Positions 32,451 through 51,340 of a stretch of DNA of 64,000 nucleotides are shown here, piece after piece. The stretch is from positions 37,735 through 101,734 of the IMG/VR virus record IMGVR_UViG_3300023179_006727. One strand, written 5' to 3'. Position numbers and translations under genes: made by a program. The stretch is from a virus. Numbering within the stretch: position 1 is the first letter of the stretch; each line of letters begins with the position of its first letter. The notes under the pieces were generated by a model that was not told the DNA's origin, ran no database searches, and saw nothing but the letters and a program-made list of their open reading frames with translations.

Positions 32451-33662
32451 ATGTCTAAAGTATTATTAGAGAGCCGTTGGGGTGAAACAAAAGAAGCCCT
32501 TCTAGAAGGTCTCAAAGGAACTCGTCGTTCAACAATGGGTGTCATTCTTGAAAACACTCGCAAGCAGTTACTTGCTGAATCTTCAGCAGGTACAACTACA
32601 GCAGGTAACATTGCAACACTTAATCGTGTTATTCTTCCCGTTATCCGCCGTGTTATGCCAACCGTTATTGCTAATGAGTTGGTTGGTGTTCAGCCCATGA
32701 CAGGACCCGTAGGTCAAATTCATACACTACGTGTTCGTTATGCAAATAATATGAACGATACAAGCGCAGCACAAACAAGTGTTGTTGCAGGTGAAGAAGC
32801 ATTGTCACCATTCAAGATTGCTCAAGCATATTCTTCAGCAAGTAGTACAACTGCAGGTGTGGTTAACACAAACCAAACACGTTATACTGCGGCAGATACA
32901 AGTGTTCTTGAAGGTAGTGGTGGTCGTCAAATCAGCGTACAGATCTTACGTCAGGCTGTTGAAGCTAAGTCACGTAAGTTACAAGCACGTTGGACATTTG
33001 AGGCTGCACAAGATGCACAGTCACAGCATGGCATTGATGTTGAAGCTGAAATCATGGCAGCACTTGCGCAAGAAATTACTGCTGAAATTGATCAAGAAAT
33101 TCTCTTATCATTACGCAGTCTTGCAGCTACAGAATTCACATACAATCAAGCAACCGTTTCAGGTACAGCTACATTTGTAGGTGATGAGCATGCAGCATTA
33201 GCAGTATTAATTAATCGTGTTGCCAATTTAATTGCTCAGCGTACACGTCGTGGTGCAGGTAATTGGGCAGTTGTTTCAAGCGAGAGTTTAACAATTCTCC
33301 AAAGTGCAACAACATCAGCATTTGCACGTACTACAGAGGGTACTTTTGAAGCACCAACAAATACAAAATTAGTTGGTACATTAAATAATGCAATGCGTGT
33401 TTTTGTTGATAGCTATGCTCCAACAGGTACAGCAGTTCTTGTTGGTTATAAAGGTTCAAGTGAAACAGATGCAGCAGCATTCTATTGCCCATATATTCCA
33501 TTAATGAGCAGTGGTGTTGTTTTAGATCCAACAACATTCGAACCCGTAGTCTCGTTCATGACTCGTTATGGATATATCGAGTTAACGAATACAGCATCAT
33601 CATTTGGTAATGCTGCTGACTATGTTGGTGAAATTGCTGTTCAAAATGTAAGTTTTCAGTAA
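32451..33662 (+). CDS. 23: Major capsid protein gp23
   Basis: The 403-residue protein begins SKVLLESRWGETKEALLEGL and contains LNRVILPVIRRVMPTVIANE, LVGVQPMTGPVGQIHTLRVR, and FYCPYIPLMSSGVVLDPTTF followed by SFMTRYGY, all typical of T4-like gp23. It builds the head shell and has the HK97 fold. It is shorter than T4 gp23 (521 residues). N-terminal cleavage by gp21 would be expected. It has a strong AGGAGA ribosome site and is followed by tandem hairpins and a terminator, as befits the most abundant virion protein. Confidence 0.96.
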   Translation: MSKVLLESRWGETKEALLEGLKGTRRSTMGVILENTRKQLLAESSAGTTTAGNIATLNRVILPVIRRVMPTVIANELVGVQPMTGPVGQIHTLRVRYANNMNDTSAAQTSVVAGEEALSPFKIAQAYSSASSTTAGVVNTNQTRYTAADTSVLEGSGGRQISVQILRQAVEAKSRKLQARWTFEAAQDAQSQHGIDVEAEIMAALAQEITAEIDQEILLSLRSLAATEFTYNQATVSGTATFVGDEHAALAVLINRVANLIAQRTRRGAGNWAVVSSESLTILQSATTSAFARTTEGTFEAPTNTKLVGTLNNAMRVFVDSYAPTGTAVLVGYKGSSETDAAAFYCPYIPLMSSGVVLDPTTFEPVVSFMTRYGYIELTNTASSFGNAADYVGEIAVQNVSFQ

Positions 33663-33730
33663 AATCAGTTATTTACAAAATTTTTTGAAAATAACTTACC
33701 AACAAAAGGGGCACGAAAGTGCCCTTTTTT
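33654..33730 (+). repeat. 77-bp perfect direct repeat, left copy (gene 23 end plus terminator)
   Basis: This segment holds the last codons of gene 23 (TTTCAGTAA), an AGTTATTT/AAATAACT hairpin and the GGGCAC-gaaa-GTGCCC terminator. It is repeated without a mismatch at 35358-35434, 1,704 bp downstream. The two copies bracket the homing endonuclease gene. Confidence 0.97.
33704..33730 (+). terminator. Intrinsic terminator of the capsid gene
   Basis: GGGCAC and GTGCCC close on a GAAA tetraloop and are followed by six T. A second hairpin, 33667-33674 with 33689-33696, lies just upstream and may protect the capsid mRNA. Confidence 0.92.
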
Positions 33731-33731
33731 A

Positions 33732-33760
33732 TTGACATTTTTTCTAAAAAACGATATATA
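33732..33760 (+). promoter_or_regulatory. Sigma70-like promoter for the homing endonuclease
   Basis: TTGACA (33732-33737), a 17-bp spacer and TATATA (33755-33760) form a host-type promoter starting two bases after the left direct repeat. It would give the endonuclease its own early expression apart from the late capsid genes. No clear ribosome site follows. Confidence 0.6.
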
Positions 33761-33774
33761 CATCTTTAATTCAA

Positions 33775-35319
33775 ATGTTATTGGATCAAGATATGAAAGA
33801 TAAAATTGTAGAAATTGTTGAGAAATACTCCAAGCATTACGTTAGGATGATTAAAAACAGAGAAGAATTAATGACATGGGTAGTGACTCATAGCAAAGTT
33901 AGTAGTGATGATATTGGGTTACTAATTTATAGTGCATTAAATGATGTTAGTAATGTGTGTCCATATGGCAAGGAAAAAAAGTTTGGTGGACTTTCAGTAG
34001 GTTTGCGCAATTGCGGATCATCTAAAGTTTGCCAATGTACACGTGAGCAAGTATCAAAATCGGTAATTCAAACTAAAAAAACGATTACTGAAGAACAACA
34101 AAAAAAAATTAATATAAAAAGGGCAAAAACTAATTTAGAAAAATATGGTGTTGAAAATATTGGACAAACAAATTTGGCTAAATTAAAGCATCGTGAATTT
34201 TATTTGACCCATGAAAATAAGAAAAATACCATTGAGTCAAAAAGCGCAAAACAGATTGGATATGAAAAGTTTAAAGGTTATATAGATAAACAATACAATT
34301 TTAAACTTTTGACCACTTTAGAAGAATATCGGGGTATACGTCAAAAAGATGCCTATGAGTACTTATTTCAGTGTAACATTTGTAAAGATATAGTATCATA
34401 TCGATTCTATCATAAACGAGGTATTACTTGTGACAAATGTAATCCTAAAAAACCTTTATATACAAGTCATGAAGAACAATCGATTTTTGATTATATAACA
34501 CAGGATTTAAAAGTTAATGGTGTACAAAGTGACAAAAAGCTTATAAATCCGTATGAATTAGATATGGTATTTCATGAATATAAAATTGCTATTGAATATT
34601 GTGGATTATATTGGCATAGTGAATTAAGTTCAGGAAAGCATAGAAACTATCATAAAACCAAAATGGAATTAGTCAATGAGTTAGGATACAGATTAATTAC
34701 TATCTTTTCCGATGAATGGTTAAACAAAAAAGAAATTGTTAAGAAAAGATTACAGCATATTTTCAACAAAAGTACAAGTAAGCAGTATGCAAGAAATTTA
34801 AAGGTTGTTGAGATAACAAACACAGACGCAAAGTCCTTTTTAAATCAATATCACATTCAAGGTTATACGATTGCTCCAATAAAATTGGGATTAGTAGACA
34901 ATTATGGAAAATTATTTGCTTTGATGACGTTTTCAAAAGGTAGAGCATCATTAAATTCAAGTGATGAATACGAATTAGTACGCTATGTGACAAATGGGAC
35001 AGTTGTTGGGGGTGCAGGAAAGTTATTGAAATATTTTACGAAGCTTTACAATCCTAAAAAAATAGCTACTTATGCTGATTTACGTTGGAGTCAGGGTAAT
35101 TTATATAAGGTGTTAGGTTTTAATAGAGTTGGTGATGCAAAAGTTGGATATTGGTACGTTGAAAATTATAATAAAAGATTGCATCGATATAATTTTACTA
35201 AGCATAAGTTAGTTAGAATGGGAGCAAATTCATTACTTACAGAATGGAAAATAATGCAAAATTTAAATTATGACCGAATTTGGGATTGCGGTCATCAAAA
35301 ATTTGAATTAATATTATAA
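33775..35319 (+). CDS. Free-standing homing endonuclease, EDxHD (Vsr-like) type
   Basis: The protein has 514 residues. A Cys-rich zinc-ribbon-like segment (FQCNICKDIVSYRFYH, TCDKCNP) precedes a nuclease core PYELDMVFHEYKIAIEYCGL and YWHSELSSGKHRNYHKTKME followed by GYRLITIFSDEW. This is the pattern of I-Bth0305I-type EDxHD homing endonucleases, which are related to Vsr and often found free-standing in phages. The C-terminal 190 residues (YARNLKVVEITNTDAKSFLN onward) are also a recurring accessory domain in this group. It sits just past the capsid gene between two copies of a 77-bp repeat, so it looks like an inserted cassette that spreads by cutting the uninterrupted gene 23 terminal region. 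The frame is intact. Confidence 0.88.
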   Translation: MLLDQDMKDKIVEIVEKYSKHYVRMIKNREELMTWVVTHSKVSSDDIGLLIYSALNDVSNVCPYGKEKKFGGLSVGLRNCGSSKVCQCTREQVSKSVIQTKKTITEEQQKKINIKRAKTNLEKYGVENIGQTNLAKLKHREFYLTHENKKNTIESKSAKQIGYEKFKGYIDKQYNFKLLTTLEEYRGIRQKDAYEYLFQCNICKDIVSYRFYHKRGITCDKCNPKKPLYTSHEEQSIFDYITQDLKVNGVQSDKKLINPYELDMVFHEYKIAIEYCGLYWHSELSSGKHRNYHKTKMELVNELGYRLITIFSDEWLNKKEIVKKRLQHIFNKSTSKQYARNLKVVEITNTDAKSFLNQYHIQGYTIAPIKLGLVDNYGKLFALMTFSKGRASLNSSDEYELVRYVTNGTVVGGAGKLLKYFTKLYNPKKIATYADLRWSQGNLYKVLGFNRVGDAKVGYWYVENYNKRLHRYNFTKHKLVRMGANSLLTEWKIMQNLNYDRIWDCGHQKFELIL

Positions 35320-35357
35320 CGATTTGAAGTTTTTCAATTTATCATATGGATATATCA

Positions 35358-35434
35358 TTTCAGTAAAATCAGTTATTTACAAAATTTTTTGAAAATAACT
35401 TACCAACAAAAGGGGCACGAAAGTGCCCTTTTTT
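35358..35434 (+). repeat. 77-bp perfect direct repeat, right copy
   Basis: This is an exact copy of 33654-33730, including the gene 23 stop region and terminator, but here it follows the endonuclease gene and codes for nothing. It marks the right junction of the inserted cassette. Confidence 0.97.
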
Positions 35435-35537: not shown

Positions 35538-36131
35538 ATGGCAGAATGGGTATTAGTTGAAAATAATGAAATTATTGAATATCATGATAAATTGCCTAGG
35601 AATTGGAGAAATATTTCGGGATTACATCTGTCTATTAATGATACAGTTTTTTTAAAATCTTTAGGTTGGTTCAAGGTACAAAAAATTGCTTTGGATAATG
35701 GGCAAGTGGTATCTCATTATGATTATTCAATTTGTGATGATTATGTTTTAGAAACTCCTATTTATAAAATTTTTTCTGCAGAAGACAATTACAATATACA
35801 ACAGCATGATTTAAATCTTTTATTAGAATATGTTAGATCTGAACGTAATAAAAAATTGTTAGAATCAGATTATACACAATTAACAGATGTTATTGAAAAA
35901 CATACAGATAATGAAAAATTAGCATGGAAAACTTATAGACAAGCTTTACGTGATTTTCCTGCCACAGTACATATTGGAAATAATGTACAGAATTTGAATT
36001 GGCCTAATTTTGATAATATTCTTTTAGATTTAGAGATTAATGTTCAAAATGAGATTATTATTCAAGAAAGTATAGAAGAAAATATTCAAAATGCAGAAAA
36101 TAATCAAGAAAGTATAGAGTCTAGTATTTGA
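35538..36131 (+). CDS. Tail-fibre assembly chaperone-like protein
   Basis: I take the ATG at 35538 (197 residues), which follows a GGGGAT ribosome site; an in-frame TTG lies just upstream. Residues of about 95-150 read LLLEYVRSERNKKLLESDYT and WKTYRQALRDFPATV, the signature of the phage tail assembly chaperone family (Phage_tail_APC type), where R-ER..LL..SDW/Y-T and W..YRQALRD.P recur. The N-terminal half resembles the beta-rich part of such proteins. The C-terminus is a short repeat of QESIE and NIQNAEN. Such genes normally sit next to the fibre gene they assist, which here is the giant RCC1 gene starting 23 bp later. Confidence 0.78.
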   Translation: MAEWVLVENNEIIEYHDKLPRNWRNISGLHLSINDTVFLKSLGWFKVQKIALDNGQVVSHYDYSICDDYVLETPIYKIFSAEDNYNIQQHDLNLLLEYVRSERNKKLLESDYTQLTDVIEKHTDNEKLAWKTYRQALRDFPATVHIGNNVQNLNWPNFDNILLDLEINVQNEIIIQESIEENIQNAENNQESIESSI

Positions 36132-36154: not shown

Positions 36155-39100
36155 ATGTTATTAGCTACCTTAATACAAACAGGAACATATTTTCCTCCTG
36201 CCCCAGGTAAGCTCTTATACCTTTGGGGCAATAACACTTATGGACAATTAGGTGATGGTACTACAGTAAGTAAATCATCACCTGTTTTAGTTCCTACTTC
36301 ATCATGGAAACAAGTATCGGTTAATAGATTTTACACCGCTGCTATTCGTTCTGATAATTTATTGTTTGCTTGGGGTAGAAATAATTATGGACAGTTAGGA
36401 GATGGCACAACAGTAAACAAGTCATCACCTGTACAAATTGGTTCTTCACAATGGAAATCAGTTTCGGTTGCTACATCTAATACTACTGCGATTGATAATA
36501 ATAATAATTTGTTTATATGGGGAGCAGGTGTATCTGTAGGTGATAATTATTTTTTAATCCCTTATAAAATAAAGCAACCATCGGGTTCAACATATATTGA
36601 TTCTAGTTGGACAATGGTTAGTGTTGGTCCTTCCCATACTGCTGCTATTCGTTCTGATGGAATATTATTTACGTGGGGGTTCAATAACAATGGACAATTA
36701 GGTGACGGAACTACGGTAACTCGAACTTACCCAACTCAAATTGGCAATTTAAGTTGGAACATGGTAAGTGCAGGTGGATTACCTTCTAATAGCACTGAGT
36801 ACACATTAGGTATAACAAGTAATGGGTTACTTTATTCTTGGGGATATGGTGGTAATGGTGCTACAGCAGATGGTGATTTTTATAATCCAAATGTTATCAA
36901 ATTTCAAGTGGGAACAAGCTATATAGATTATAGTTGGACAGCCTTATCTTCAAGGGGTTCTAATTTTGTTCTTGCAGTTAGAAATGATGGACTGTTATTT
37001 TCTTGGGGCAGAAATCAATATGGTCAATTAGGTGATGGTACTACTGTTAATAAATCTACTCCTGTTCAAATTGGTAGTAGTAGTTGGATAGCTGTATCAA
37101 CAGGATCTCTACATGCCTTAGCTATACGCAGTGGTGGAACATTATTTTCTTGGGGCAGAAATAATTATGGACAGTTAGGAGATAGTACTACTGTTAATAA
37201 ATCATCACCTGTACAGATTGGTAGTAGTAGTTGGACAACTATTAGTGCATATGGTACTGTTAGTACAGGTATTAGTAACAATAATCTTTTTGTATGGGGA
37301 TTTAACGGCACGGGGTTTCGTTTGGGTTTAGGTGATGGCACAACAACAAATAGATCATCCCCCGTTCAAATCGGAGATCCTGCGATAAGTTGGCAAACTG
37401 CAGTTGCAGGTGGATATCAATCAGCGACATTGAATTCTACCAATCTATTATATACATGGGGTAGAAATAATCGAGGTCAATTAGGTAGCGGCTCTACAGT
37501 TAATAGATCATCCCTTGTACAAGTTGGTGGTAGTAGTTGGACAGCTTTAAGTATGGGCATGAGTCATACTGTAGGTATTCGTTCAGATGGAATATTATTT
37601 GCTTGGGGATTAAATAATTTTGGACAATTAGGAGATGGTACTGGAATTAGTAGATCTTCCCCTGTACAAATTGGTAGTAGTAGTTGGATTGCTGTACGTG
37701 CAGGATCATATCACACTGTTGCAATAAGAAGTGGTGGAACATTATTTACTTGGGGTAGCAATTTTTTATCACAATTGGGAGACGGAAATTCACAAGGTAC
37801 GACTGTGATCTCGCCCGTACAAATTGGTAGCAGTAGTTGGACAGCGATAGCTGCAGGTTCAACTTTTAGTGCAGGTATATCGGATGGATTATTATATGCA
37901 TGGGGATATAATTCAAACGGACAAATTGCAGTAAGTGGTTCAACCCAAATATATAATTGGATAAGTACTAGTTCGGGTACTGATATGCATGCTGCGATTC
38001 GTAGTGATGGTTATTTATTTGCATGGGGTTTAAATTCATATGGTCGATTAGGTGATGGCACGACTATTAATAAATCATCACCTGTACAAATTGGTAGTAG
38101 TAGTTGGATTGCAGTTAGTGTGGGACAAAACTTTACTTCTGCAATACAAAGTGGTGGTACATTATTTACATGGGGGAGAAATACTTTTGGGCAATTAGGT
38201 GATGGTACTACAGTCGATAAATCATCACCTGTACAAATTGGTAGCAGTAGTTGGACAAGCGTTGCAGCAGGTGGTAGTCATGTTGTTGCAATTCGTTCTG
38301 ATGGTTTATTATTTGCTTGGGGTAACAATAATTTAGGACGATTGGGTGATGGTACTACTGTTAATAAATCATCTCCCGTACAAATTGGTAGTAGTAGTTG
38401 GACTGCGGTATCAGGCGGAAGAAATCATACAATTGCTATTAGAAGCGGCGGAACATTGTTCGGATGGGGGGATGGAACTTTTGGACAATTAGGATACGGA
38501 TCTACACTTAGGTTAGAACCAGGTCTTCTTAGTTACCCGCAAGACACAGCAAGTTGGACAAGCGTTGCATCAGGTGCTAGTCATGTTGTTGCAATTCGTT
38601 CTGATGGTTTATTATTTGCTTGGGGTAACAATAATTATGGACAATTAGGTGATGGCACAAATATAACCCGTAGTGTTCCAACACAAATCGGCAATGATAG
38701 TTGGACTGTAATCGGGGCGGGTCGAAGAATATCAGCAGGAATTAATAGTAACGGTATAGTATATACGTGGGGATATAATACTAACGGTGAGTTAGGAAGT
38801 GGTGATACAACAAGTAGGAACGCTCCTGGAACACTTGCGTCAGGATTTAATAGTAGATCCGCAACAAGATTAGGAGTCGGAGCTAATCATATGATGGCAT
38901 ACTTTCCTACACTAGGTGATGTTTACGGTTGGGGAGTTGGCTTTAATGGGCAATTGGGAACAGGAAGTAGTGGCATTACCTATCGCCTATCAACACCTAC
39001 GCTCTTAGGTTTAGGTGGGGGTGAACCCCAAAAAATTTCATTAGGTGATCGTTTCTCATTAGTTTTAATTAGTAATGGTACTTTATTTGGAACAGGTTTA

Positions 39101-41896
39101 AATACTTATGGACAAATGAGTTCAGGAAATACAACGCAGCGAAATGTTTGGGCATCTATAGGCACGTCAATAGTATATAACGATATAGCAGCAGGTAAGG
39201 GGCATGCATTAGGTATAAGATCAACAGGTCAATTATTTGCATGGGGGAGAAATGATTTTGGGCAATTAGGTGATGGTACTACTATTAATAGACTTTCAAT
39301 GGTTTCAATTGGAGCAAGTAGTTGGTCAGCAGTTGGATCAGGTATTTATGCTAATACTTCATTAGCTATCAGAAGTGGAGGAACATTATTTAGTTGGGGA
39401 TTAAATTCATGGGGTCAATTAGGTGATGGTACTCAAATTAGTAAATCATCACCCGTACAAATTGGTAGCAGTAGTTGGATAGCAGTATCTGCGGGCGGTT
39501 TAAATTCTGTAGCTATACGAAGTGGTGGTACATTATTTACTTGGGGTTCAAATTCATATAGTCAATTAGGTACCAATTTGTCCCAAGTTTCTCCTGTGCA
39601 AGTAGGAAGTAGTAGTTGGACAGCGATAGCTGCAGGTTCAAATTTTAGTCTTGGAATAACAAATAATAATGCACTTTATGCATGGGGAAGAAATAATAAA
39701 AGTCAATTAGGCGTAGGTATTGTTCCCCTTACCGAACAATATACTCCTTTACAAGTAGGATTAGGTAATAGTTGGACAGCGATAGCAGCAGGTAATTATT
39801 TTAGTGCAGGTATAGATACTAATGGGTATTTGTACATGTGGGGTCAAGGAAATTACGGACAGTTAGGTTTAGGTAATCCTCCTATAAGTATATCTGTCAA
39901 CCAAAGAGTTATTACGCAAGTAAAATTAGGTTTAAATAATATTTTTTCTTCAGTACAATGTGGTGGCTATGGCACCTCTGCAATAGATAGCAATAATAAA
40001 TTATATGTATGGGGTAATGGCGGCAATGGTGCGAACGGTCAAAATTTAAATAATATACGCATAATTTTTAGACCATTACAAATTGGTGGTTCAAGCACTT
40101 TGCTTGGTGCAACATTTAATTCACCAACCTTAATAAATTCTTCTTCGTGGACTGCCTTATCAAGTAGCTCTGATTTTGTAGTAGGTATTAGTAGTGATAA
40201 TAAATTATTTACTTGGGGCAATAATTCGTATGGACAATTAGGCAATAATACTAAAGCTATACAATGGACAAATGTAGGGCCAAGCGCATTTCTAAAAAAT
40301 GGTTTATTATATGCATGGGGAGCAAATACTTACGGTCAATTAGGTGATGGTACTACAGTAAATAAATCTTCACCCGTACAAATTGGTAGCAGTAGTTGGA
40401 CTGCGGTAGCATTGTCTGCAGTTAATACCCAAATTTTAAATAATCGGTTTGCATTACAAACATTTGCAATACGAAGTGATGGATTATTATTTGCATGGGG
40501 ATTAAATAATTTTGGGCAATTAGGTGATGGTACGACTGTTAATAAATCATCACCGGTTCAAATTGGTAGTTCCTCATGGTCTGTAGTAGCAGGTGGCATG
40601 TACCACACTGTTGGTATTACTATTAATAATAAGTTATTTACATGGGGAAGAAATAATTATGGACAACTAGGGGATGGTACTACGGTTAATAAATCTTCCC
40701 CTGTGCAAATTGGTAGTAATGATTGGGGAATAGTTTCTGCAGGCCGTGGACTTTCTCATGCTATACGATCTGATAATCTTTTGTTTGGATGGGGAGGCAA
40801 TAATACTACTGCGGGATTCATAGGTGATAACACAACGATAAGTAGATCCTCACCTGTGCAAATTGGTAGCAGTAGTTGGACAACAGTTTCGTCTTCATCC
40901 TATGGAGCTAGTGCTATACGAAGTGGTGGTACATTATTTACATGGGGTTTAAATTCATATGGTCAATTAGGTGATGGTACTACTGTTAATAAATCTTCGC
41001 CCGTACAAGTTGATAGTAGTAGTTGGGTTGCAGTAAGTAGTGGTTGGCAACACTGTTTAGGAATTAAAGCTGGTACTAATGTTGCGGTTGGAGTATTGCT
41101 TGCTTGGGGCAGAAATCAATATGGTCAATTAGGTGATGGTACTACAGTAAATAAATCTACTCCTGTTCAAATTGGTAGTACAACAGAAGTCGATGCTCCA
41201 ACTTATACTAGTTGGATTATGATTTCAGCTAGGAGTGACAACTCATCTGGATTAAAACAAAATAATGTATTATATTTTTGGGGAAAAAATAATATTTCTC
41301 AAGTAGGGGATGGTACTACTATTAATAGACTAAATCCTTTTTTAATTCCTTATGTAAATCAAGAATTACAATCTTCATTCTTACAAAGTTTTAGTGGATC
41401 TCCTGTACAAATTGGTAATAGTAGTTGGACAGCAGTCAGTGCAGGCAACGCACATGTTGGTGCAATACGAAATGATAATTTGCTTTTTTCATGGGGATTA
41501 AATAATTTTGGGCAATTAGGTGATGGCACTACAGTAAATAAATCTTCACCCGTACAAATTGGTAGCAGTAGTTGGGCTACAATATCGGCAGGTTACAGAC
41601 ATACTGTAGCCACAACAAACAATGGCGCTTTATTTTCTTGGGGATTAAATAATTTCGGGCAATTAGGCGATGGTACTACTGTTAATAAATCATCACCTGT
41701 CTTTATTGCAGGAACTTATCAATCAAGTCTTAGATCTTGGAAATTTGTAAATACAGGTCAAGATTCTACTCTTGCTATTGATAATACCGATAAATTATAT
41801 GCTTGGGATTTGGTGTACCTAATGCAACAACGGGAATGCCGCAATTTACTGCATCAACAATTGATACAAGCAATCCATATCCTATTCGAACACTGA
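36155..41896 (+). CDS. Giant RCC1-repeat protein, N-terminal part (frame ends early)
   Basis: The protein has 1,913 residues built from RCC1-type beta-propeller blades about 50 residues long. A typical blade reads LFTWGLNSYGQLGDGTT and KSSPVQIGSSSWTAVSAG, then AIRSGGT or AIRSDGL. There is no signal peptide or membrane segment. The first 1,883 codons are regular repeats; the last 30 residues (DLVYLMQQRECRNLLHQQ) do not fit, because the RCC1 pattern moves to the -1 frame at 41806. The natural product is probably one protein continuing in the next entry. Position after a tail-fibre chaperone suggests a fibre or other virion surface protein, an inference. RCC1 propellers are protein- and ligand-binding scaffolds in other systems. 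Confidence 0.85.
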   Translation: MLLATLIQTGTYFPPAPGKLLYLWGNNTYGQLGDGTTVSKSSPVLVPTSSWKQVSVNRFYTAAIRSDNLLFAWGRNNYGQLGDGTTVNKSSPVQIGSSQWKSVSVATSNTTAIDNNNNLFIWGAGVSVGDNYFLIPYKIKQPSGSTYIDSSWTMVSVGPSHTAAIRSDGILFTWGFNNNGQLGDGTTVTRTYPTQIGNLSWNMVSAGGLPSNSTEYTLGITSNGLLYSWGYGGNGATADGDFYNPNVIKFQVGTSYIDYSWTALSSRGSNFVLAVRNDGLLFSWGRNQYGQLGDGTTVNKSTPVQIGSSSWIAVSTGSLHALAIRSGGTLFSWGRNNYGQLGDSTTVNKSSPVQIGSSSWTTISAYGTVSTGISNNNLFVWGFNGTGFRLGLGDGTTTNRSSPVQIGDPAISWQTAVAGGYQSATLNSTNLLYTWGRNNRGQLGSGSTVNRSSLVQVGGSSWTALSMGMSHTVGIRSDGILFAWGLNNFGQLGDGTGISRSSPVQIGSSSWIAVRAGSYHTVAIRSGGTLFTWGSNFLSQLGDGNSQGTTVISPVQIGSSSWTAIAAGSTFSAGISDGLLYAWGYNSNGQIAVSGSTQIYNWISTSSGTDMHAAIRSDGYLFAWGLNSYGRLGDGTTINKSSPVQIGSSSWIAVSVGQNFTSAIQSGGTLFTWGRNTFGQLGDGTTVDKSSPVQIGSSSWTSVAAGGSHVVAIRSDGLLFAWGNNNLGRLGDGTTVNKSSPVQIGSSSWTAVSGGRNHTIAIRSGGTLFGWGDGTFGQLGYGSTLRLEPGLLSYPQDTASWTSVASGASHVVAIRSDGLLFAWGNNNYGQLGDGTNITRSVPTQIGNDSWTVIGAGRRISAGINSNGIVYTWGYNTNGELGSGDTTSRNAPGTLASGFNSRSATRLGVGANHMMAYFPTLGDVYGWGVGFNGQLGTGSSGITYRLSTPTLLGLGGGEPQKISLGDRFSLVLISNGTLFGTGLNTYGQMSSGNTTQRNVWASIGTSIVYNDIAAGKGHALGIRSTGQLFAWGRNDFGQLGDGTTINRLSMVSIGASSWSAVGSGIYANTSLAIRSGGTLFSWGLNSWGQLGDGTQISKSSPVQIGSSSWIAVSAGGLNSVAIRSGGTLFTWGSNSYSQLGTNLSQVSPVQVGSSSWTAIAAGSNFSLGITNNNALYAWGRNNKSQLGVGIVPLTEQYTPLQVGLGNSWTAIAAGNYFSAGIDTNGYLYMWGQGNYGQLGLGNPPISISVNQRVITQVKLGLNNIFSSVQCGGYGTSAIDSNNKLYVWGNGGNGANGQNLNNIRIIFRPLQIGGSSTLLGATFNSPTLINSSSWTALSSSSDFVVGISSDNKLFTWGNNSYGQLGNNTKAIQWTNVGPSAFLKNGLLYAWGANTYGQLGDGTTVNKSSPVQIGSSSWTAVALSAVNTQILNNRFALQTFAIRSDGLLFAWGLNNFGQLGDGTTVNKSSPVQIGSSSWSVVAGGMYHTVGITINNKLFTWGRNNYGQLGDGTTVNKSSPVQIGSNDWGIVSAGRGLSHAIRSDNLLFGWGGNNTTAGFIGDNTTISRSSPVQIGSSSWTTVSSSSYGASAIRSGGTLFTWGLNSYGQLGDGTTVNKSSPVQVDSSSWVAVSSGWQHCLGIKAGTNVAVGVLLAWGRNQYGQLGDGTTVNKSTPVQIGSTTEVDAPTYTSWIMISARSDNSSGLKQNNVLYFWGKNNISQVGDGTTINRLNPFLIPYVNQELQSSFLQSFSGSPVQIGNSSWTAVSAGNAHVGAIRNDNLLFSWGLNNFGQLGDGTTVNKSSPVQIGSSSWATISAGYRHTVATTNNGALFSWGLNNFGQLGDGTTVNKSSPVFIAGTYQSSLRSWKFVNTGQDSTLAIDNTDKLYAWDLVYLMQQRECRNLLHQQLIQAIHILFEH

Positions 41897-44800
41897 AAAT
41901 AAAAACTGCACTTAATCCTGCTGCCTTTCCTGATTATCAATGGATTGCAGCCTCAACTTGCGGAAATATGAGTTTTGGAATACGAAATGATGGTATTTTA
42001 TTCGCATGGGGATATTCAAATAATGGTGGTTCAGGATCGCTTACAAATAAATTTGTAAATCCACCATCACCTATACTTGTACAAGGTAGCACTTTTAGCC
42101 AATTTGTTGCTGTAACTTCAGGCGATCAGCACAGTGCTGCAATTCGTAGTGGTGGTACATTATTTACTTGGGGATTAAATTCATTCGGTCAATTAGGTGA
42201 TAGTACTACAGTAAGTAAATCTTCGCCCGTACAAATTGGTAGCAGTAGTTGGACTGCAGTTTGTGCGGGATCTCAAGGATTTATTCTAGCTCTTAGATCA
42301 GATAATTTACTTTTTTCATGGGGTCGTAATCAATATGGACAATTAGGTGATGGTACTACAATTAACAAATCTTCACCTGTACAAATCGGTAGTAGTAGTT
42401 GGATTGCTATATCAGGTGGTAATGGTTTTGTTGCTGCTATTCGTTCGGGTGGTACATTATTTTCTTGGGGAAGAAATCAAAGTGGACAATTAGGTGATAG
42501 CACTACAGTTAATAAATCATCACCTGTACAAATTGGTAATAGTAGTTGGATAGCTGTATCAGCAGGAGATCAACACGTAGCTGCAATTCGTAGTGGTGGT
42601 ACATTATTTACTTGGGGATTAAATTCATTTGGTCAATTAGGTGATAGTACTACAGTTAATAAATCATCACCTGTACAAATTGGTAGCAGTAGTTGGAGTA
42701 TTTTACCTGCAGGTTTACAAAATTCAACTATGGCATTAGATCCTACAGGAACACTTTATACATGGGGCAATAATTCCAATGGACAATTAGGCGATGGCAC
42801 GTCAATCAATAAATCATCTCCTGTACAAATCGGTGGTTCGACTAAGTTTTCATATATTGCGATGGGGTTACAGACATTACCTGCATGTTTTGGGATAGCT
42901 TCAAATGGGACAATGTATTCATGGGGTGGGGATTCCACTTACCCAGGGATTGCAATCGGTAGGCCTGGGGCGTTGATTCCTGTACAAGTTGGCGCAGGGG
43001 GAATTAATGCTCAAAGTATTACATTTCAAAATTTAAATTGGTCTACCGCATCAATAGTCCAACCTGCCTCTGAAAATAAAGGTCAAGCTGCAGCAATAAC
43101 AACCAATGGTACATTATATGTGTGGGGTATTAATAATTATGGTCAATTAGGTAATGGGAATACAGTAAGACAGATTTTTCCACAACAATTGGATTCAAAT
43201 TCTTGGACTATGGTAAGTGTAGGCCAATACCATATGCTTGGCCTACTCCCCAACGACACATTATTTGCATGGGGTAGAAATCAATATGGTCAATTAGGAG
43301 ATGGTACCACAATAAATCGTTCTTCACCTGTACAGCTTGGTGGTATTACTAGATTTAATAATGGTAGTTGGACTTTAATTAATGCAGGACAACAATTAAG
43401 CGCAGGTATTGGAAAATCAAATTCATACTTGTTTACATGGGGATCAAGTAATTTAGGTCAACTAGGACGATCAATGGGTGGTTCAGCACCTTTTCAAATT
43501 GGTACATCATCATGGACAGCAGTTTCTACAGAATTTAATCAATTTGCTGCCGCAATAAAATCTGATGGATCTTTATTCACTTGGGGACAAAATTCAAGCG
43601 GACAACTTGGAGACGGCACCACAGTTAATAAATCATCACCTGTGCAAATTGGTAGTAGTAGTTGGACAGTAGCTAGTGTAGGAGGTTCGCACACTGTAGC
43701 TATACGAAGTGGTGGTACATTATTTACTTGGGGATTAAATTCAAGTGGTCAATTAGGTGATGGTACGACTGTTAATAAATCATCACCTGTTCAAATTGGA
43801 TCATCATCATGGATTGCAATTTCAGGAGGTGGATTACATTCTGCTGCAATTGATATTAATAGTTTGTTATTTACTTGGGGATTAAATTCAAGCGGACAAC
43901 TTGGAGATGGAACCACTGTTAATAAATCATCCCCCGTACAAATTGGTAGTAGTAGTTGGACAGCAGTATCTGCGGGTCCTTCTAATTCTGTAGCTATACG
44001 AAGTGGTGGTACATTATTTACTTGGGGATTAAATAGCGTAGGTCAATTAGGTGATGGTACGACTGATAATAAATCATCGCCCGTACAAATTGGCAGTAGT
44101 AGTTGGACAGCAGTTAATGCGGGTTGGGTAATAATAGATGCTATAAGAAGTGGTGGTACATTATTCACTTGGGGATCAAATTCATTTTTTATTGGAAGCA
44201 GTCGCCCCCCAGGCGGCCTCTACCCATACCAACTTGGTTATGATTCATGGGCAGCATTATCTACTACAATATCAAATTCAAGTGCCGTTCGTTCTGATGG
44301 AATATTGTTTACTTGGGGAAATAATGCATCAGGACAAATAGGAGATGGCACCACCATACAAAGAGGTAGTCCTGTACAAATTGGTAGTAGTAGTTGGACT
44401 ATTGTCAGCGTAAATCCGTCTGTTACAAGTGCGGTAAGATCTGACGGTTTATTATACGCATGGGGATCAAATACGTTTGGTGAACTTGCTGATGGCTCTT
44501 TTATCAGTAATTTTTCACCACAACTTGTTGGTTCGTCGCAACCATTTAGTTGGATTTCAATTACGGGTTGGGTAAAAGGTCATCGTGCAGCCATACGTTC
44601 AGATGGAATTTTGTTTACATGGGGAAGAAATACTCAAGGACAGTTAGGAAATGGTACAACAATCACCACTTCAAGACCTTCGCCTTTAGTATTTCCATAT
44701 AATAAAAGTCAATGGACTGCTGTAGCTGTAAGCAATTATCATTCATTAGCAATACGTAGTGATGGTTATTTATTTGCATGGGGAGCAGGTTTGTTTGGCA

Positions 44801-47800
44801 GCTTAGGTGATGGTACTACAATTAGTAAATCATCACCCGTACAAATTGGTAGCAGTAGTTGGGCTGTAGTAAGTGCAGGTGGTGCCCCATTTTCGGCAGC
44901 TATACGTAGTGGCGGCACATTGTTTACTTGGGGATTAAATTCCAATGGACAATTAGGCGATGGCACGACTATTAATAAATCATCACCTGTACAAATTGGC
45001 AGTAATAGTTGGGTTGCAGTAAGTGGTGGAAGTAACTTTATTGCTGCAATACAAAGTGGAGGTACATTATTTACATCGGGAAGAAATACTTACGGTCAAT
45101 TAGGTGATAGTACTACAGTTAATAAATCTTCCCCTGTACAAATTGGTAGCAGTAGTTGGATAGCGGTAAACGCAGGTAATTCACACACTGTAGCTATACG
45201 AAGTGGAGGTACATTATTTACATGGGGAAGAAATAATTATGGACAACTAGGGGATGGTACTACGGTTAATAAATCTTCCCCTGTACAAATTGGTAGCAGT
45301 AGTTGGATTGCAGTTGCAGCAGTTCTTGGAGGTGAAATTGGAAATGTAGGAGCAAGTTTGGGAATTACAGCGGATAATAGTTTATATACGTGGGGATCAC
45401 CAAATAATAGCCATACAGTATCTATTGCAACAAGTCCCGCAGGTTTTACAGGAGATGCTGATTGGATAAATATTAATCCTATAAAATTTGTATCTAATTC
45501 TGTATATTTTGATAATCAAAGTTGGACAAGCGTTTCATCAGGTAATAGCCATACAGTAGCTATTCGTTCCGATAATATATTATTTGCATGGGGTAAAAAT
45601 CAATATGGTCAATTAGGTGATGGTACTACTTCAGATAAATCATTGCCACAGCAAATAGGAAGTAGTAGTTGGATTGCAGTTAGTGCAGGATATAATTTTA
45701 CAAAAGCATTACTAAGTAATAGTAAATTATATACTTGGGGCAGAAATAATGTAGGACAATTGGGTGATGGTACTACAGTTAATAAATCATCTCCCGTACA
45801 AATTGGTGGTAGTAGTAGTTGGAATATAATTAGTGCGGGAAATAGTTTTTCTGCTGCGATTGATTCTGATCAATATTTGTATACATGGGGTATAAATAAT
45901 TTAGGACAATTAGGGAATAATACAACATGCAACCTCGCTATCCCAAACTTAATTCAAACCCCTACTTCATATAGTTGGACGATGATAGCAGCAGGATTAA
46001 GTCATACTGCTGCTATTCGTTCAGATGGTATATTATTTACGTGGGGCGGCAATTCAAGCGGACAAATAGGTGATGGAACTACGATTAATAGGAGCCCTGG
46101 GGTGTTCCAAGTTGGTAGTAGTAGTTGGACAGCAGTCAGTGTAAGTGATGGTGATACATATGCTATACGCAGTGATGGTCGGATTTTTGGATGGGGAAGC
46201 ATTGCTGCAGGACAGTTAGGTGATGCAGTAACAACTGTTTTGGGTTGGAATGCTTTACAAATTGGCGGTGCACAGGGACTTGGACAGGATGTTAATAATA
46301 ATATATATACTTGGGGATTGCTGGGACCACTTAATGGACCAGCATCGACCGCATCACGCTCATCACCCGTAGCAATTGGATTTTCCGCAGCTCAGGTTGA
46401 TCTAGGCGGCTTTGATTCGGCTCGTGCTTTTGCATTAGCAATCACTACTACAGGCTTATTATATGCATGGGGAAATAATGCTTATGGTCAATTAGGAGAT
46501 GGTACTATAATTAGTAGATCTTCCCCTGTACAAATTGGTAGTAGTAGTTGGACAGCAGTAAACGCAAATGCATTCAATACAGCCGCTGCGACACCGAACT
46601 CATGGTCTTTAGCAATTAGAAGTGGTGGCACATTATTTGCTTGGGGTAGAAATGCTTATGGTCAATTAGGAGATGGCACCACCGCACAAAGACTTAGTCC
46701 TGTACAAATTGGTAGTAGTAGTTGGATTGCAATTAGTGCAGGAGGGGTGCACACTGTAGCTATACGAAGCGGAGGTACATTATTTTCTTGGGGAAGAAAT
46801 CAAAATGGACAATTAGGTGATAGCACTACAGTTAATAAATCATCTCCCGTACAAATTGGTAGTAGTAGTTGGACTGCTGTTTCAGCAGGAGGTTCTCAAA
46901 ACTTAGCAATACGTAGTGATGGTTTATTATATGCATGGGGTAGAAATAATTTAGGACAATTAGGTGACGGTACTACAGTTGATAAATCTTCGCCCGTACA
47001 AATTGGTAGCAGTAGTTGGAAATTAGTATCTTCATCGGATAGTAATGGTGGAGGAATTACAATCAATGACAATTTATTTATGTGGGGAAATAATGCATCA
47101 GGACAAATAGGTGATGGTACTACAGTAAGTAAATCTTCGCCCGTACAAATTGGCGTTCCTGTACTTCCTACAGGTTATTCTTTAGGCGCAAAAGTATTAG
47201 CAGGTTCCAACTTTAGTGGAATGGTTATTAATAATAATTTATTTACATGGGGTAGAAATAATAATAGTCAATTAGGTGACGGTACTACTGTTGATAAATC
47301 AACACCTGTACAAATTAATTCCTCAGGAAGTAGTATTAATGGATCTGTGTTGAATGCTTCATTGGGTGAAAATAGTAGTTTAGCAATACGTACTGATGGA
47401 ATATTATTTGCTTGGGGAATAAATTCAAGTGGACAGTTAGGTGATGGCACTACTGTAAATAAATCTACTCCTGTACAAATTGGTAATAGTAGTTGGATTG
47501 TAGTAAGTGCAGGATTTAATAATAATGCTGCAATTCGTAGTGGAGGAACATTATTTACTTGGGGAAGTAATAGTGCAGGAGAATTAGGTGATGGTACTAC
47601 TAATAATAAATCATCTCCTGTACAAATTGGTAGTGATAGTTGGACAATGGTTTCTACAAATAATGGAAGCTCGTTAGCAATTAGATCAGATGGTTTATTA
47701 TTTACATGGGGAAATAATAGTTATGGTCAATTAGGAGATGGTACAACTGTAAATAAATCATCTCCTGTACAAATTGGTAGTAGTAGTTGGACTGCTATTA

Positions 47801-50800
47801 AAGGTGGTTATTCATCATTTGCTATTCGAACTGATGGAATATTATTTGCTTGGGGGAGAAATAATTTTGGGCAATTAGGTGACGGTACTACTGTAAATAA
47901 ATCACAACCTGTGCAAATTGGTAGTAGCAGTTGGGCTGCATTATCAATTACTGCACCATCAGATACTATGGGTGCAATTCGTAGTGGTGGAACGTTATTT
48001 ACATGGGGTAGAAATCAATATGGTCAATTAGGTGATGGTACTACTGTTAATAAATCATCTCCTGTACAAATCGGTAGTAGTAATTGGACAATGTTGGCAA
48101 TGGGTAAACTTGGTCAAACATTTGCGAATACAAGTGATGGTACATTATATGTATGGGGAGCAGGTTCTTTCGGCCAACTTGGGATTAATGACACTACAAA
48201 TCGTTCCTCTCCAACTCAATTTACAATGGGGGTTTGGTCTCAGTTATGGGTTACTACTAGTGGTACAACAGCTATATTAAGTTCTTGGGCTACTTATTAT
48301 AATAAAAGAGCCTATGTGTGGGGAGTAAATAGTTTAACCTTTGGCGGCAGGTTAGGTTTAAATGATACAATAAATAGATCATCTCCGAGTTTACTTGGAG
48401 GACAACCTGTAAGCTCTAATCAATCAAGTCCTGTACAAGTAGCATCCAATAGTTGGAATGCGGTAGACGCAGGTTCATCTCATGTTATGGCATTGAATTC
48501 TGCAAATATATTATTTACTTGGGGATTAAATTCTAGTGGTCAATTAGGTGATGGTACAACCATTAATAGATCATCACCTGTACAAATTGGCTCATCATCA
48601 TGGATTGCAATTTCAGGAGGTGGGTTACATTCTTCTGCAATTAATAGTAACAGTTTGTTATTTACTTGGGGAAATAATTCAAGTGGTCAATTGGGTGATG
48701 GCACGACTGTTAATAAATCATCACCTGTTCAAATTGGTAGCAGTAGTTGGTCAGCAGTATCAAGTGGTGGAACACACACTGTAGCTATACGAAGTGGAGG
48801 TACATTATTTACATGGGGATTAAATAGCGTAGGTCAACTAGGTGATGGTACTACGGTTAATAAATCTTCCCCTGTACAAATCGGCAGTAATAGTTGGGTT
48901 GCAGTAAGTGCGGGGTTAGCTAGTTCTGCAGCTATAGAAAATGGTACTAACTTTTTATATACATGGGGAAATAATTCCAATAGTCAATTAGGTGACGGTA
49001 CTACTGTTAATAAATCATCACCTGTTCAAATTGGTAGCAGTAGTTGGTCAATGATTAGTGTGGGTGGTAGTCATATGGCAGGTATTGTTACCACAGCTTC
49101 TGCGCTTACATGGGGTAGTAATACTCAAGGACAATTAGGAAGAAATGAGTATGAAATTTTACCATTAAAAATTGGAACAAGTAATTGGACAACGGTTAGC
49201 ACTAGTGCAGGAGGTAGTCACACTGTTGCAATACGAAGTGGTGGTACATTATTTACATGGGGAGTTAATGCACAAGGTCAATTAGGTGATGGTACTACTA
49301 TTAATAAATCTTCTCCTGTGCAAATTGGCAGTAGTAGTTGGGCAGCGATAGCAGCAGGAACAAACCATACACTTGCGATAAGAAATGGTGGTACATTATT
49401 TTCATGGGGGCTTAATGATTTTGGTCAATTAGGCGACTTAACTAAGGTTTGGAAATCATCACCTGTACAAATTGGCAGTAATAGTTGGGTTGCAGTTGTC
49501 GCAGGGCAAGTCCATTCTATGGCTCTTTCTAATGAACAAAAATTGTTTTCATGGGGTGGAAATTTTGCGGGTCAATTATCGAATGATAGTTTAACACCAA
49601 AATCATCTCCTGTTCAAATTGGTTCATCATCATTTACAATAATTTCTGCAGGATTACAATTTAATGCAGCGATAGCAAGTGGTGGAACGTTATTTACTTG
49701 GGGATCTTTCAATGTAAATTTCCCTAGTAGTCCTACTACTACTGAGCCTATATGGTTAGGCAGACCAATGGGTGGAGGGTTACCTTACAGAATACAACAA
49801 AATCAAAATTGGACGATATTAGGTCGTACAGGGGCAATAACATCAAATGGTACAATTTATACATGGGGCGTGGATAATGTTATAAGTGGTGCTGGTGCTC
49901 CTGTTTCTTGGTCTTATAGTTATCAAAACGTATCACCAATACCTACCGCAAGGGTAAATACTTTAAACACTGTAAAATCGTGGACTAATATTAGTTTAGG
50001 GTATAGTTATGTTACTGCTATTGATAGTAATAATTTATTATATACTTGGGGTCAACCTACTAATTCAATAGGACAAACTGCGGACGGTGATTACTTAAAT
50101 CCTGTACCTATAAAATTTTATCAACCACTTACATTGGATCAATACCCAACTTATTTAACACATAGTTGGGTAATGGTCTCGGCAACAGGGCTTAGAGGAA
50201 ACACAAATCTTCATACTTTAGCAATAAGATCAGATGGTTTATTATTTGCTTGGGGAAAAAATGATCAAGGACAATTAGGTGATGGCACTACCATTGAACG
50301 TACATTACCTACACAAATTGGTAGTAGTAGTTGGACAATAGTTACTGCAGGATATCGTTTATCATTAGCTATCAGAAGTGATGGTATATTATTTAATTGG
50401 GGAACAGCAATACAATCCTCACCTGTGCAGGTAGGTTCAAGTGCTTGGTCAGCAGTTAGTGCAGGAACTAATAGCCAATGGTGGCAAGCAATTCGTGCAG
50501 ATGGTTTATTATTTGCGCAAGGAAATAATGTTAGTGGACAATTGGGTGATGGTACTACTACAACTAGAAATTCTCCCGTACAAATTGGTAGTAGTAGTTG
50601 GGTTGCGGTTTCTACAGGTTATACGCATACTGTAGCTATACGAAGTGGAGGTGCATTATTTACATGGGGAGGTAATGCAAATGGTCAATTAGGGGATGGC
50701 ACTACAGTAAGTAAATCTTCGCCCGTACAAATTGGTAGTAGTAGTTGGGTAGCAATATCTGCTAGTTATAGAACATCAGGTGCTATTAGAGATGGTGGTA

Positions 50801-51340
50801 CATTATTTACTTGGGGATTAAATTCATTTGGTCAATTAGGAGATGGTACAACTGTAAATAAATCATCTCCTGTACAAATTGGTAGTAGTAGTTGGACTGC
50901 AATTGGGATCGCAGTTACTTCGAGTTTCGCTATAAAATCCAATGGATTATTATTTGCTTGGGGTGAAAATATAACCGGTAATCTTGGAGATGGTACAACT
51001 ATTAATAGGTCATCGCCCGTACAAATTGGATCATTGTCTTGGATAATGGTAACAGGAAATCGTTGGGCACAATTCGGAATAACTTCAAATAACTTGCTTT
51101 ATAGTTGGAACTCCGATTCCAATTCGGGATTCCGTTTTAATGCTCGTCCTTTTGGAGGATTAGTGCCATATCAAATTGGTTTTAGTAATTGGTCAGGAGT
51201 GAGTGCGGGTACTTCGCATGCGGTAGGTTTGACTGCAGGCAATGCATTATTTACTTGGGGATTAAATTCAAGTGGGCAACTTGGAGATGGTACAACTATT
51301 AATAGGTCATCGCCCGTACAAATTTCAGGAACTTGGGCTG
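36200..51340 (+). repeat. Long array of RCC1-coding DNA repeats
   Basis: Roughly 100 units of about 150 bp are repeated with many near-identical stretches, for example CAAATTGGTAGTAGTAGTTG and GGTCAATTAGGTGATGG variants. The copies differ in order and spacing. Identity at synonymous sites implies recent duplication or ongoing recombination between units. Confidence 0.9.

Follow-up and report, generated by a model that had tools for sequence, protein, structure and literature searches.

The stretch of DNA considered here, called the window, is 64,000 nt of an IMG/VR virus contig, from a large bacterial virus (positions 37,735 to 101,734 of record IMGVR_UViG_3300023179_006727, which has 101,734 bp). 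Our subject is a free-standing homing endonuclease gene behind gene 23, the major capsid protein gene, and the 77-bp repeat that brackets it. The features of the locus are as follows, with relatives given L numbers in the text.

32451..33662, + strand: gene 23, major capsid protein, intact (PF07068, E 1.9e-98; PHROG 138).
33654..33730, + strand: copy 1 of the repeat, comprising the last two codons of gene 23 (from TTTCAG) and its stop, an AT stem-loop and the terminator up to the T run (repeat comparison, RNA fold).
33667..33696, + strand: AT-rich stem-loop of copy 1 (RNA fold).
33704..33730, + strand: intrinsic terminator of copy 1, hairpin and T run (terminator scan, RNA fold).
33732..33760, + strand: promoter-like TTGACA-17 nt-TATATA directly 3' of the copy 1 terminator (a consensus match, found by reading).
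33775..35319, + strand: Hef-like free-standing homing endonuclease, 514 amino acids (PHROG 3339, E 1.8e-99, residues 86-512).
35320..35357, + strand: spacer of 38 nt from the endonuclease stop to copy 2.
35358..35434, + strand: copy 2, read as a displaced gene 23 3' end and terminator (repeat comparison, RNA fold).

The first-pass annotation of this locus had described a perfect 77-bp duplication on both sides of a homing endonuclease gene, with gene 23 left whole. All of this has been corroborated. The two copies match at 77/77 positions with a start-to-start distance of 1704, and the capsid and endonuclease profiles listed above fit both genes. The sequence before copy 1 is AAGT and that before copy 2 ATCA; the letter after is A at copy 1 and T at copy 2. 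The flanking letters therefore differ on both sides, which makes 77 the maximal exact length. By chance, about 6e-36 exact 77-mer pairs would be expected in 5 kb. The segment occurs just twice in the 101,734-bp record and is the longest exact repeat there, followed by repeats of 72, 71, and 68 bp in a repeat-rich tail region. The fold predicted for each copy (z about -6.3) combines the AT stem-loop with a GC hairpin and its U run. An exact search of IMG/VR with 42 bp of the repeat gave no match, and an Rfam scan of the repeat region gave sub-threshold matches alone. The idea that the 38-nt spacer is an older gene 23 tail was dropped, the similarity being too weak for a convincing match.

How might such a repeat arise? 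The reading we favor is that it is the scar of a recent one-sided homing or re-homing event in this lineage, to which we give a probability of roughly 0.55. The observations it starts from are the repeat itself, its absence from the closest relative, the endonuclease hotspot, relatives whose 3' regions are displaced and an empty-site pair at gene 18. Suppose that a sibling lacking the endonuclease gene was cut by the enzyme close to where gene 23 ends. Repair at the gene 23 flank would use homology and would copy from the donor the end of gene 23 with its terminator, the promoter and the endonuclease gene. At the opposite flank, the tail modules of donor and recipient would be unrelated, so the copied strand would be connected by an irregular join to the right end of the recipient, and this end would still begin with TTTCAG, the stop codon and the terminator. 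Gene 23 would then remain complete at its 3' end, while the 3' end and terminator that the recipient had originally would now lie beyond the endonuclease gene. Of this scenario we infer the cleavage, the one-sided repair and the order of events. One-sided homology with illegitimate joining at microhomology is documented for homing of the T4 td intron (PMC2988022). The td case resembles the proposal in having homology on one side and an irregular join on the other, although it is an experimental intron system.

The first line of evidence comes from L114, the closest relative. Its gene 23 is 98% identical to that of the window in amino acids and 88% in nucleotides, its endonuclease 67% and 71.5%, respectively, and the left junction is common to both. 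However, DNA similarity stops at the end of the endonuclease gene, and L114 has neither a second copy nor a far-side terminator. Right-hand homology between these siblings is thus missing. The duplication is situated at the transition from conserved head genes to an unrelated tail module. Because L114 has the endonuclease and the left junction without the repeat, insertion and duplication were separate in time, and the claim that the cassette as such carries a fresh terminator copy had to be given up. Judging from these alignments, the duplication appears to have arisen, or become identical, after the split from L114. A single copy is also the rule elsewhere. In eight contigs matched by their gene 23 tail pattern and with readable downstream DNA, the gene's own 77-nt end was sought downstream and a second copy was found in 0/8; the best downstream score was at most 31, compared with 154 in the window. 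One of the eight, L197, is the L114 contig and the sole one with a Hef gene; a further pattern-matched contig, L194, is cut, and sequence is identical within L195/L199/L201 and within L198/L200. Two copies in relatives without the endonuclease, which the first-pass annotation had named as the finding that would speak against it, were thus looked for, and each such relative has one.

One alternative is that an old insertion gained a far-side terminator from the gene 23 side, or had its own overwritten, through later ectopic duplication or gene conversion and with no homing. Since the endonuclease and left junction are common to L114, the insertion predates the repeat, as this alternative supposes. 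Identity at 77/77 positions is compatible with conversion between nearby copies, and in L115 the gene 23 terminator has also been copied, there to a place between two tandem Hef genes. However, copy 2 begins within gene 23 codons, and a duplication selected for its terminator could do without them. Moreover, an irregular join is what one would expect at its position, the border to the unrelated tail module. We consider this alternative unlikely.

The one-sided homing reading finds its clearest counterpart at gene 18. In L171/L203 (one contig) and in L174, a Hef relative stands convergent to gene 18, and the last 14 codons of gene 18 are copied beyond it (42/43 nt); the copy in L175 is more diverged. 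L205 has a gene 18 that is 97% identical to that of L203 and no endonuclease. Its gene 18 joins directly to the sequence that in L203 lies beyond the displaced copy, with 92% identity over 850 bp. In 60-nt bins the two gene 18 sequences are 88-100% identical, falling to 80% in the last 60 nt, with the last 29 residues unchanged. By this comparison, the L203/L205 pair is direct evidence for displacement of a gene end. The earlier suggestion of repair-template switching accordingly remains the best reading in view of the single-copy relatives and the empty gene 18 sibling, but not in its original form, in which duplication and insertion coincided.

How common are repeat-flanked endonuclease genes? 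Both flanks were compared at 125 endonuclease sites (97 Hef, 18 HNH, and 10 GIY-YIG), after removal of exact duplicates and of sites whose left or right flank was shorter than 120 nt. The window scores 154, followed by the gene 18 group (92, 90, and 68), L111 (66), L115 (59), L181 (46), and L022 (44), against a median of 23. The first-pass annotation had called such duplications unusual for free-standing homing genes. This now has to be softened, as weaker ones occur in L171/L174/L175, L115, L181, and L111 and in fungal mitochondria (PMC3630166). L115 (1516-5003) holds two tandem Hef-like genes behind gene 23, parted by a 27-bp copy of the gene 23 terminator. In L111, from Campylobacter phage IBB_35, a Hef gene (237-1925) is flanked by a 43-nt repeat that precedes two genes and is probably a copied upstream regulatory region.

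Another possibility is an assembly artefact, in which an endonuclease contig was concatenated with a contig starting at a common k-mer so that one 77-base k-mer was doubled. The exact repeat length is suggestive, as 77 is a k-mer length common in SPAdes-type assemblers and the record's next longest repeats have other lengths. The edges also behave as k-mer doubling predicts: at the right one, alleles that have the gene would part from those that lack it, and the left one falls at an arbitrary codon. However, assembly-graph paths normally share a k-mer and do not double it, and the record contains no N. Similar repeats with mismatches, in other contigs and in a GenBank phage (L174, L175, and L111), argue that the pattern is natural. 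An artefact seems quite improbable to us.

For endonuclease genes, the place behind gene 23 is a hotspot, with three families represented. A capsid-only set comprised 73 distinct gene 23 3' regions from the best 80 of 599 gene 23 matches. An endonuclease gene lies within 400 nt of gene 23 in 27/68 classified regions and is lacking in 41; five more regions were too short. Among the 27, the same strand carries 15 HNH and 10 GIY-YIG genes and the other strand one of each. Seen from the other direction, the best 80 Hef relatives include 20 loci with gene 23 at 60% identity or more and 11 more whose resemblance to gene 23 is weak. The Hef gene of PA5oct-like phages is located about 110 nt behind gene 23 in 11/11 records by coordinates (two being the same phage). 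The last codons of gene 23 may be linked to occupation of the site. Endings in TTTCAG are found in 12 endonuclease or scar regions and one region without either, while the numbers for TTCCAA are 4 and 18 (Fisher p 4e-5, in a test that ignores relatedness and omits TTCCAG, TTTCAA, and regions with other endings). Two further loci show other arrangements at this place. L008 (3806-4520) has a 179-amino-acid open reading frame (ORF) of none of these endonuclease types, with the GGGATGGGAAG terminator described below displaced behind it. In L083 (2965-5726) a Hef-like gene is convergent to gene 23, and the terminator between them can serve both directions.

Relatives also show what happens to the terminator of gene 23. 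The motif counts that follow derive from 106 distinct regions from 129 loci, a set that is biased because Hef and terminator searches contributed to it, and the terminator counts are biased likewise. Many relatives that lack an endonuclease gene have the 11-mer GGGATGGGAAG 10-50 nt past gene 23, directly before a terminator. It is near gene 23 in 17/48 gene-free regions vs. 6/43 regions with a same-strand endonuclease. In 9/43 of the latter (6 HNH, 2 GIY-YIG, and 1 Hef), the GGGATGGGAAG-terminator unit instead directly follows the endonuclease gene. Four of the 48 gene-free regions have two terminators with an endonuclease remnant between them. The window's own terminator has 22 exact matches in IMG/VR, all directly behind gene 23: 12 precede the start of an HNH endonuclease (L087 being cut after about 30 nt) and 10 precede one common endonuclease-loss scar. 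From the positions of GGGATGGGAAG and of these exact terminators it follows that, in these loci, the terminator between gene 23 and the endonuclease belongs to the endonuclease allele and the ancestral terminator has been pushed downstream.

The loss scar is common to L015/L084, L086, L089, L093, L095, L097, L100, L102, L103, and L105, and consists of two different terminators separated by an apparent endonuclease 3' remnant. A single exact occurrence of GGGATGGGAAG is present in each of 54/282 loci (e.g., L011:7214-7224 and L003:3600-3610). Where checked, it is behind gene 23 and before a terminator; in loci with an inserted endonuclease gene it comes after that gene. It fits no Rfam family.

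Could selection simply maintain two terminators, so that strong transcription of gene 23 does not reach the endonuclease and read-through does not reach the tail genes? The first-pass annotation had suggested such selection. A terminator does precede 39/43 same-strand endonuclease genes behind gene 23 and also follows the gene in 12/36 cases with a readable right flank. In addition, T4 segD, between genes 23 and 24, has terminators upstream and downstream (PMC2988022). However, the preceding terminator is mostly just gene 23's own, and the following one often its ancestral one. None follows in 24/36, nor in L114, so a terminator on the far side is not a general need and selection for one on both sides finds no support as a rule. 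Selection for terminators also leaves the copied codons unexplained, and we think it very unlikely. Two other candidates were dropped: a transposon with target-site duplication, because the ORF of the segment is the endonuclease alone with no transposase and no bracketing long inverted repeat, and SegB-like segmental amplification (taken from PMC13096335), which predicts whole-segment repeats, yet one endonuclease copy is present.

Several points weigh against one-sided homing as the source of the repeat. Both copies are identical, so the native one is indistinguishable. The proposed cut near TTTCAG is a guess, and for free-standing enzymes the cut site is often distant from the gene (PMC2988022). 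The search gave no endonuclease-free relative that has the tail module of the window, so the displaced copy, unlike that at gene 18, is unmatched to a native neighbor here. The GGGATGGGAAG unit stays beside gene 23 in the 6/43 same-strand endonuclease regions mentioned above and is not displaced there. Among other same-strand Hef loci behind gene 23, a comparable copy is found in L115 only, as the 27-bp terminator. Even the gene 18 pair does not fit perfectly. The displaced codons of L203 are nearer to the gene-side copy (42/43) than to the native end in L205 (36/42, by eye), so exchange between the copies, or another recipient, must be added.

The nearest known parallel is provided by the mobile endonuclease ORFs (mORFs) of fungal mitochondria, which come with a carboxy-terminal duplication and are described for Allomyces atp6 and for Glomus atp6, atp9, cox2, and nad3 (PMC3630166). 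There, as in the window, a free-standing endonuclease stands behind a gene with a doubled 3' end, with the spare copy on the far side (PMC3630166). However, the gene-side copy of the fungal mORFs is foreign and diverged (64-81% in Glomus; PMC3630166), whereas the window copies are identical. The coding part of the window repeat is also limited to two codons and the stop, the terminator is included, the nucleases belong to other families, and the host replicon is a phage, not a mitochondrion. A foreign, diverged gene-side copy is absent from the window and partly seen at gene 18, where L205 supplies an empty relative joining the gene directly to the far flank. The window locus works like the fungal type, but we do not file it as a member.

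Among phages, T4 segD is likewise a free-standing endonuclease gene behind gene 23 between terminators (PMC2988022). Unlike the window gene it encodes a GIY-YIG enzyme and lies on the opposite strand, and a duplicated gene end goes unmentioned in the accessible part of that source (PMC2988022). PA5oct-like Pseudomonas phages have a full-length member of the same Hef-like family (34%) in the same place. In PA5oct itself the order of terminator, TTGAC element and Hef gene is the same, but no repeat flanks the gene. A literature search by title and abstract start, with subscription papers mostly outside its coverage, found no description of a duplicated gene end around a free-standing phage endonuclease.

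The locus bears on an open point, namely how free-standing homing genes enter where donor and recipient share homology on only one side. Together, the window locus, L203/L205 and the loss scars behind gene 23 are natural snapshots of a single process, taken before, during, and after it, at sites that are very common. With these snapshots, one-sided repair, gene-end displacement and loss through the repeats become testable. Displacement also offers a reason for the tandem terminators behind the capsid genes of these phages. A tentative generalization, possible rather than probable, is that endonuclease genes that lie behind essential late genes in large T4-like phages spread through displacement of 3' ends. 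Each insertion would leave the gene side with a full gene end and terminator and move the recipient's end beyond the inserted gene. The displaced end would serve as the next right homology arm and matching copies would allow clean excision, in a cycle of gain and loss harmless to the capsid gene.

The endonuclease is free-standing, being its own ORF between intact genes with no Rfam match above the gathering score. An alternative start at 33793 aligns with the start used for L114. The promoter-like element before it is absent from the promoter scan list, the scan having required T at the last place of the second hexamer; a similar TTGAC element 3' of the terminator is present in L114 and in phage PA5oct (L108). 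Two domains of the protein and the first gene of the tail module complete the feature list.

34459..34770, + strand: nuclease domain of the Vsr-like (I-Bth0305I-like) type, spanning about residues 223-326 as numbered from 33793 (profile, Foldseek, structure alignment).
34792..35316, + strand: C-terminal domain with a GNAT fold (best matches include phage Mu Mom; 8BV8, Foldseek E 3.6e-6).
35538..36131, + strand: tail-fibre assembly chaperone-like gene, first tail-module gene behind the repeat (PF16778, E 1.1e-14).

A structure model of the endonuclease (mfa9363418b40, 33793-35316; mean predicted local distance difference test score 83.3, predicted template modeling (TM) score 0.55) resembles PDB 3R3P in its middle and GNAT folds at its C-terminus. 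3R3P, titled a mobile intron protein, is the I-Bth0305I catalytic domain only; it is matched by profile A2 (E 9.7e-9) and by Foldseek with a TM score of 0.77 on the target. Residues E228, D257, E268, H275, H287, and K290 are invariant across 14 sequences. For the GNAT-fold domain VIA-align gives Z 13.4 with a root mean square deviation of 4.0 over 162 aligned residues. The best C-terminal match in Foldseek is phage Mu Mom, whereas the VIA ranking puts several protein acetyltransferases level with Mom. A jumbo-phage survey reported Mom domains fused to REase-fold nucleases and read them as modification plus restriction (PMC7824862). Here the fusion of a Vsr-like nuclease and a Mom-like GNAT fold is placed like a mobile homing gene.

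The chaperone-like gene after copy 2, used as a query, had no relative among viral contigs. On its 3' side, 36155-51381 holds two very long ORFs of 1913 and 3192 amino acids with a repeat period of 147 nt, repeats that we take to be RCC1-like. The two ORFs overlap in different frames near 41803-41896.

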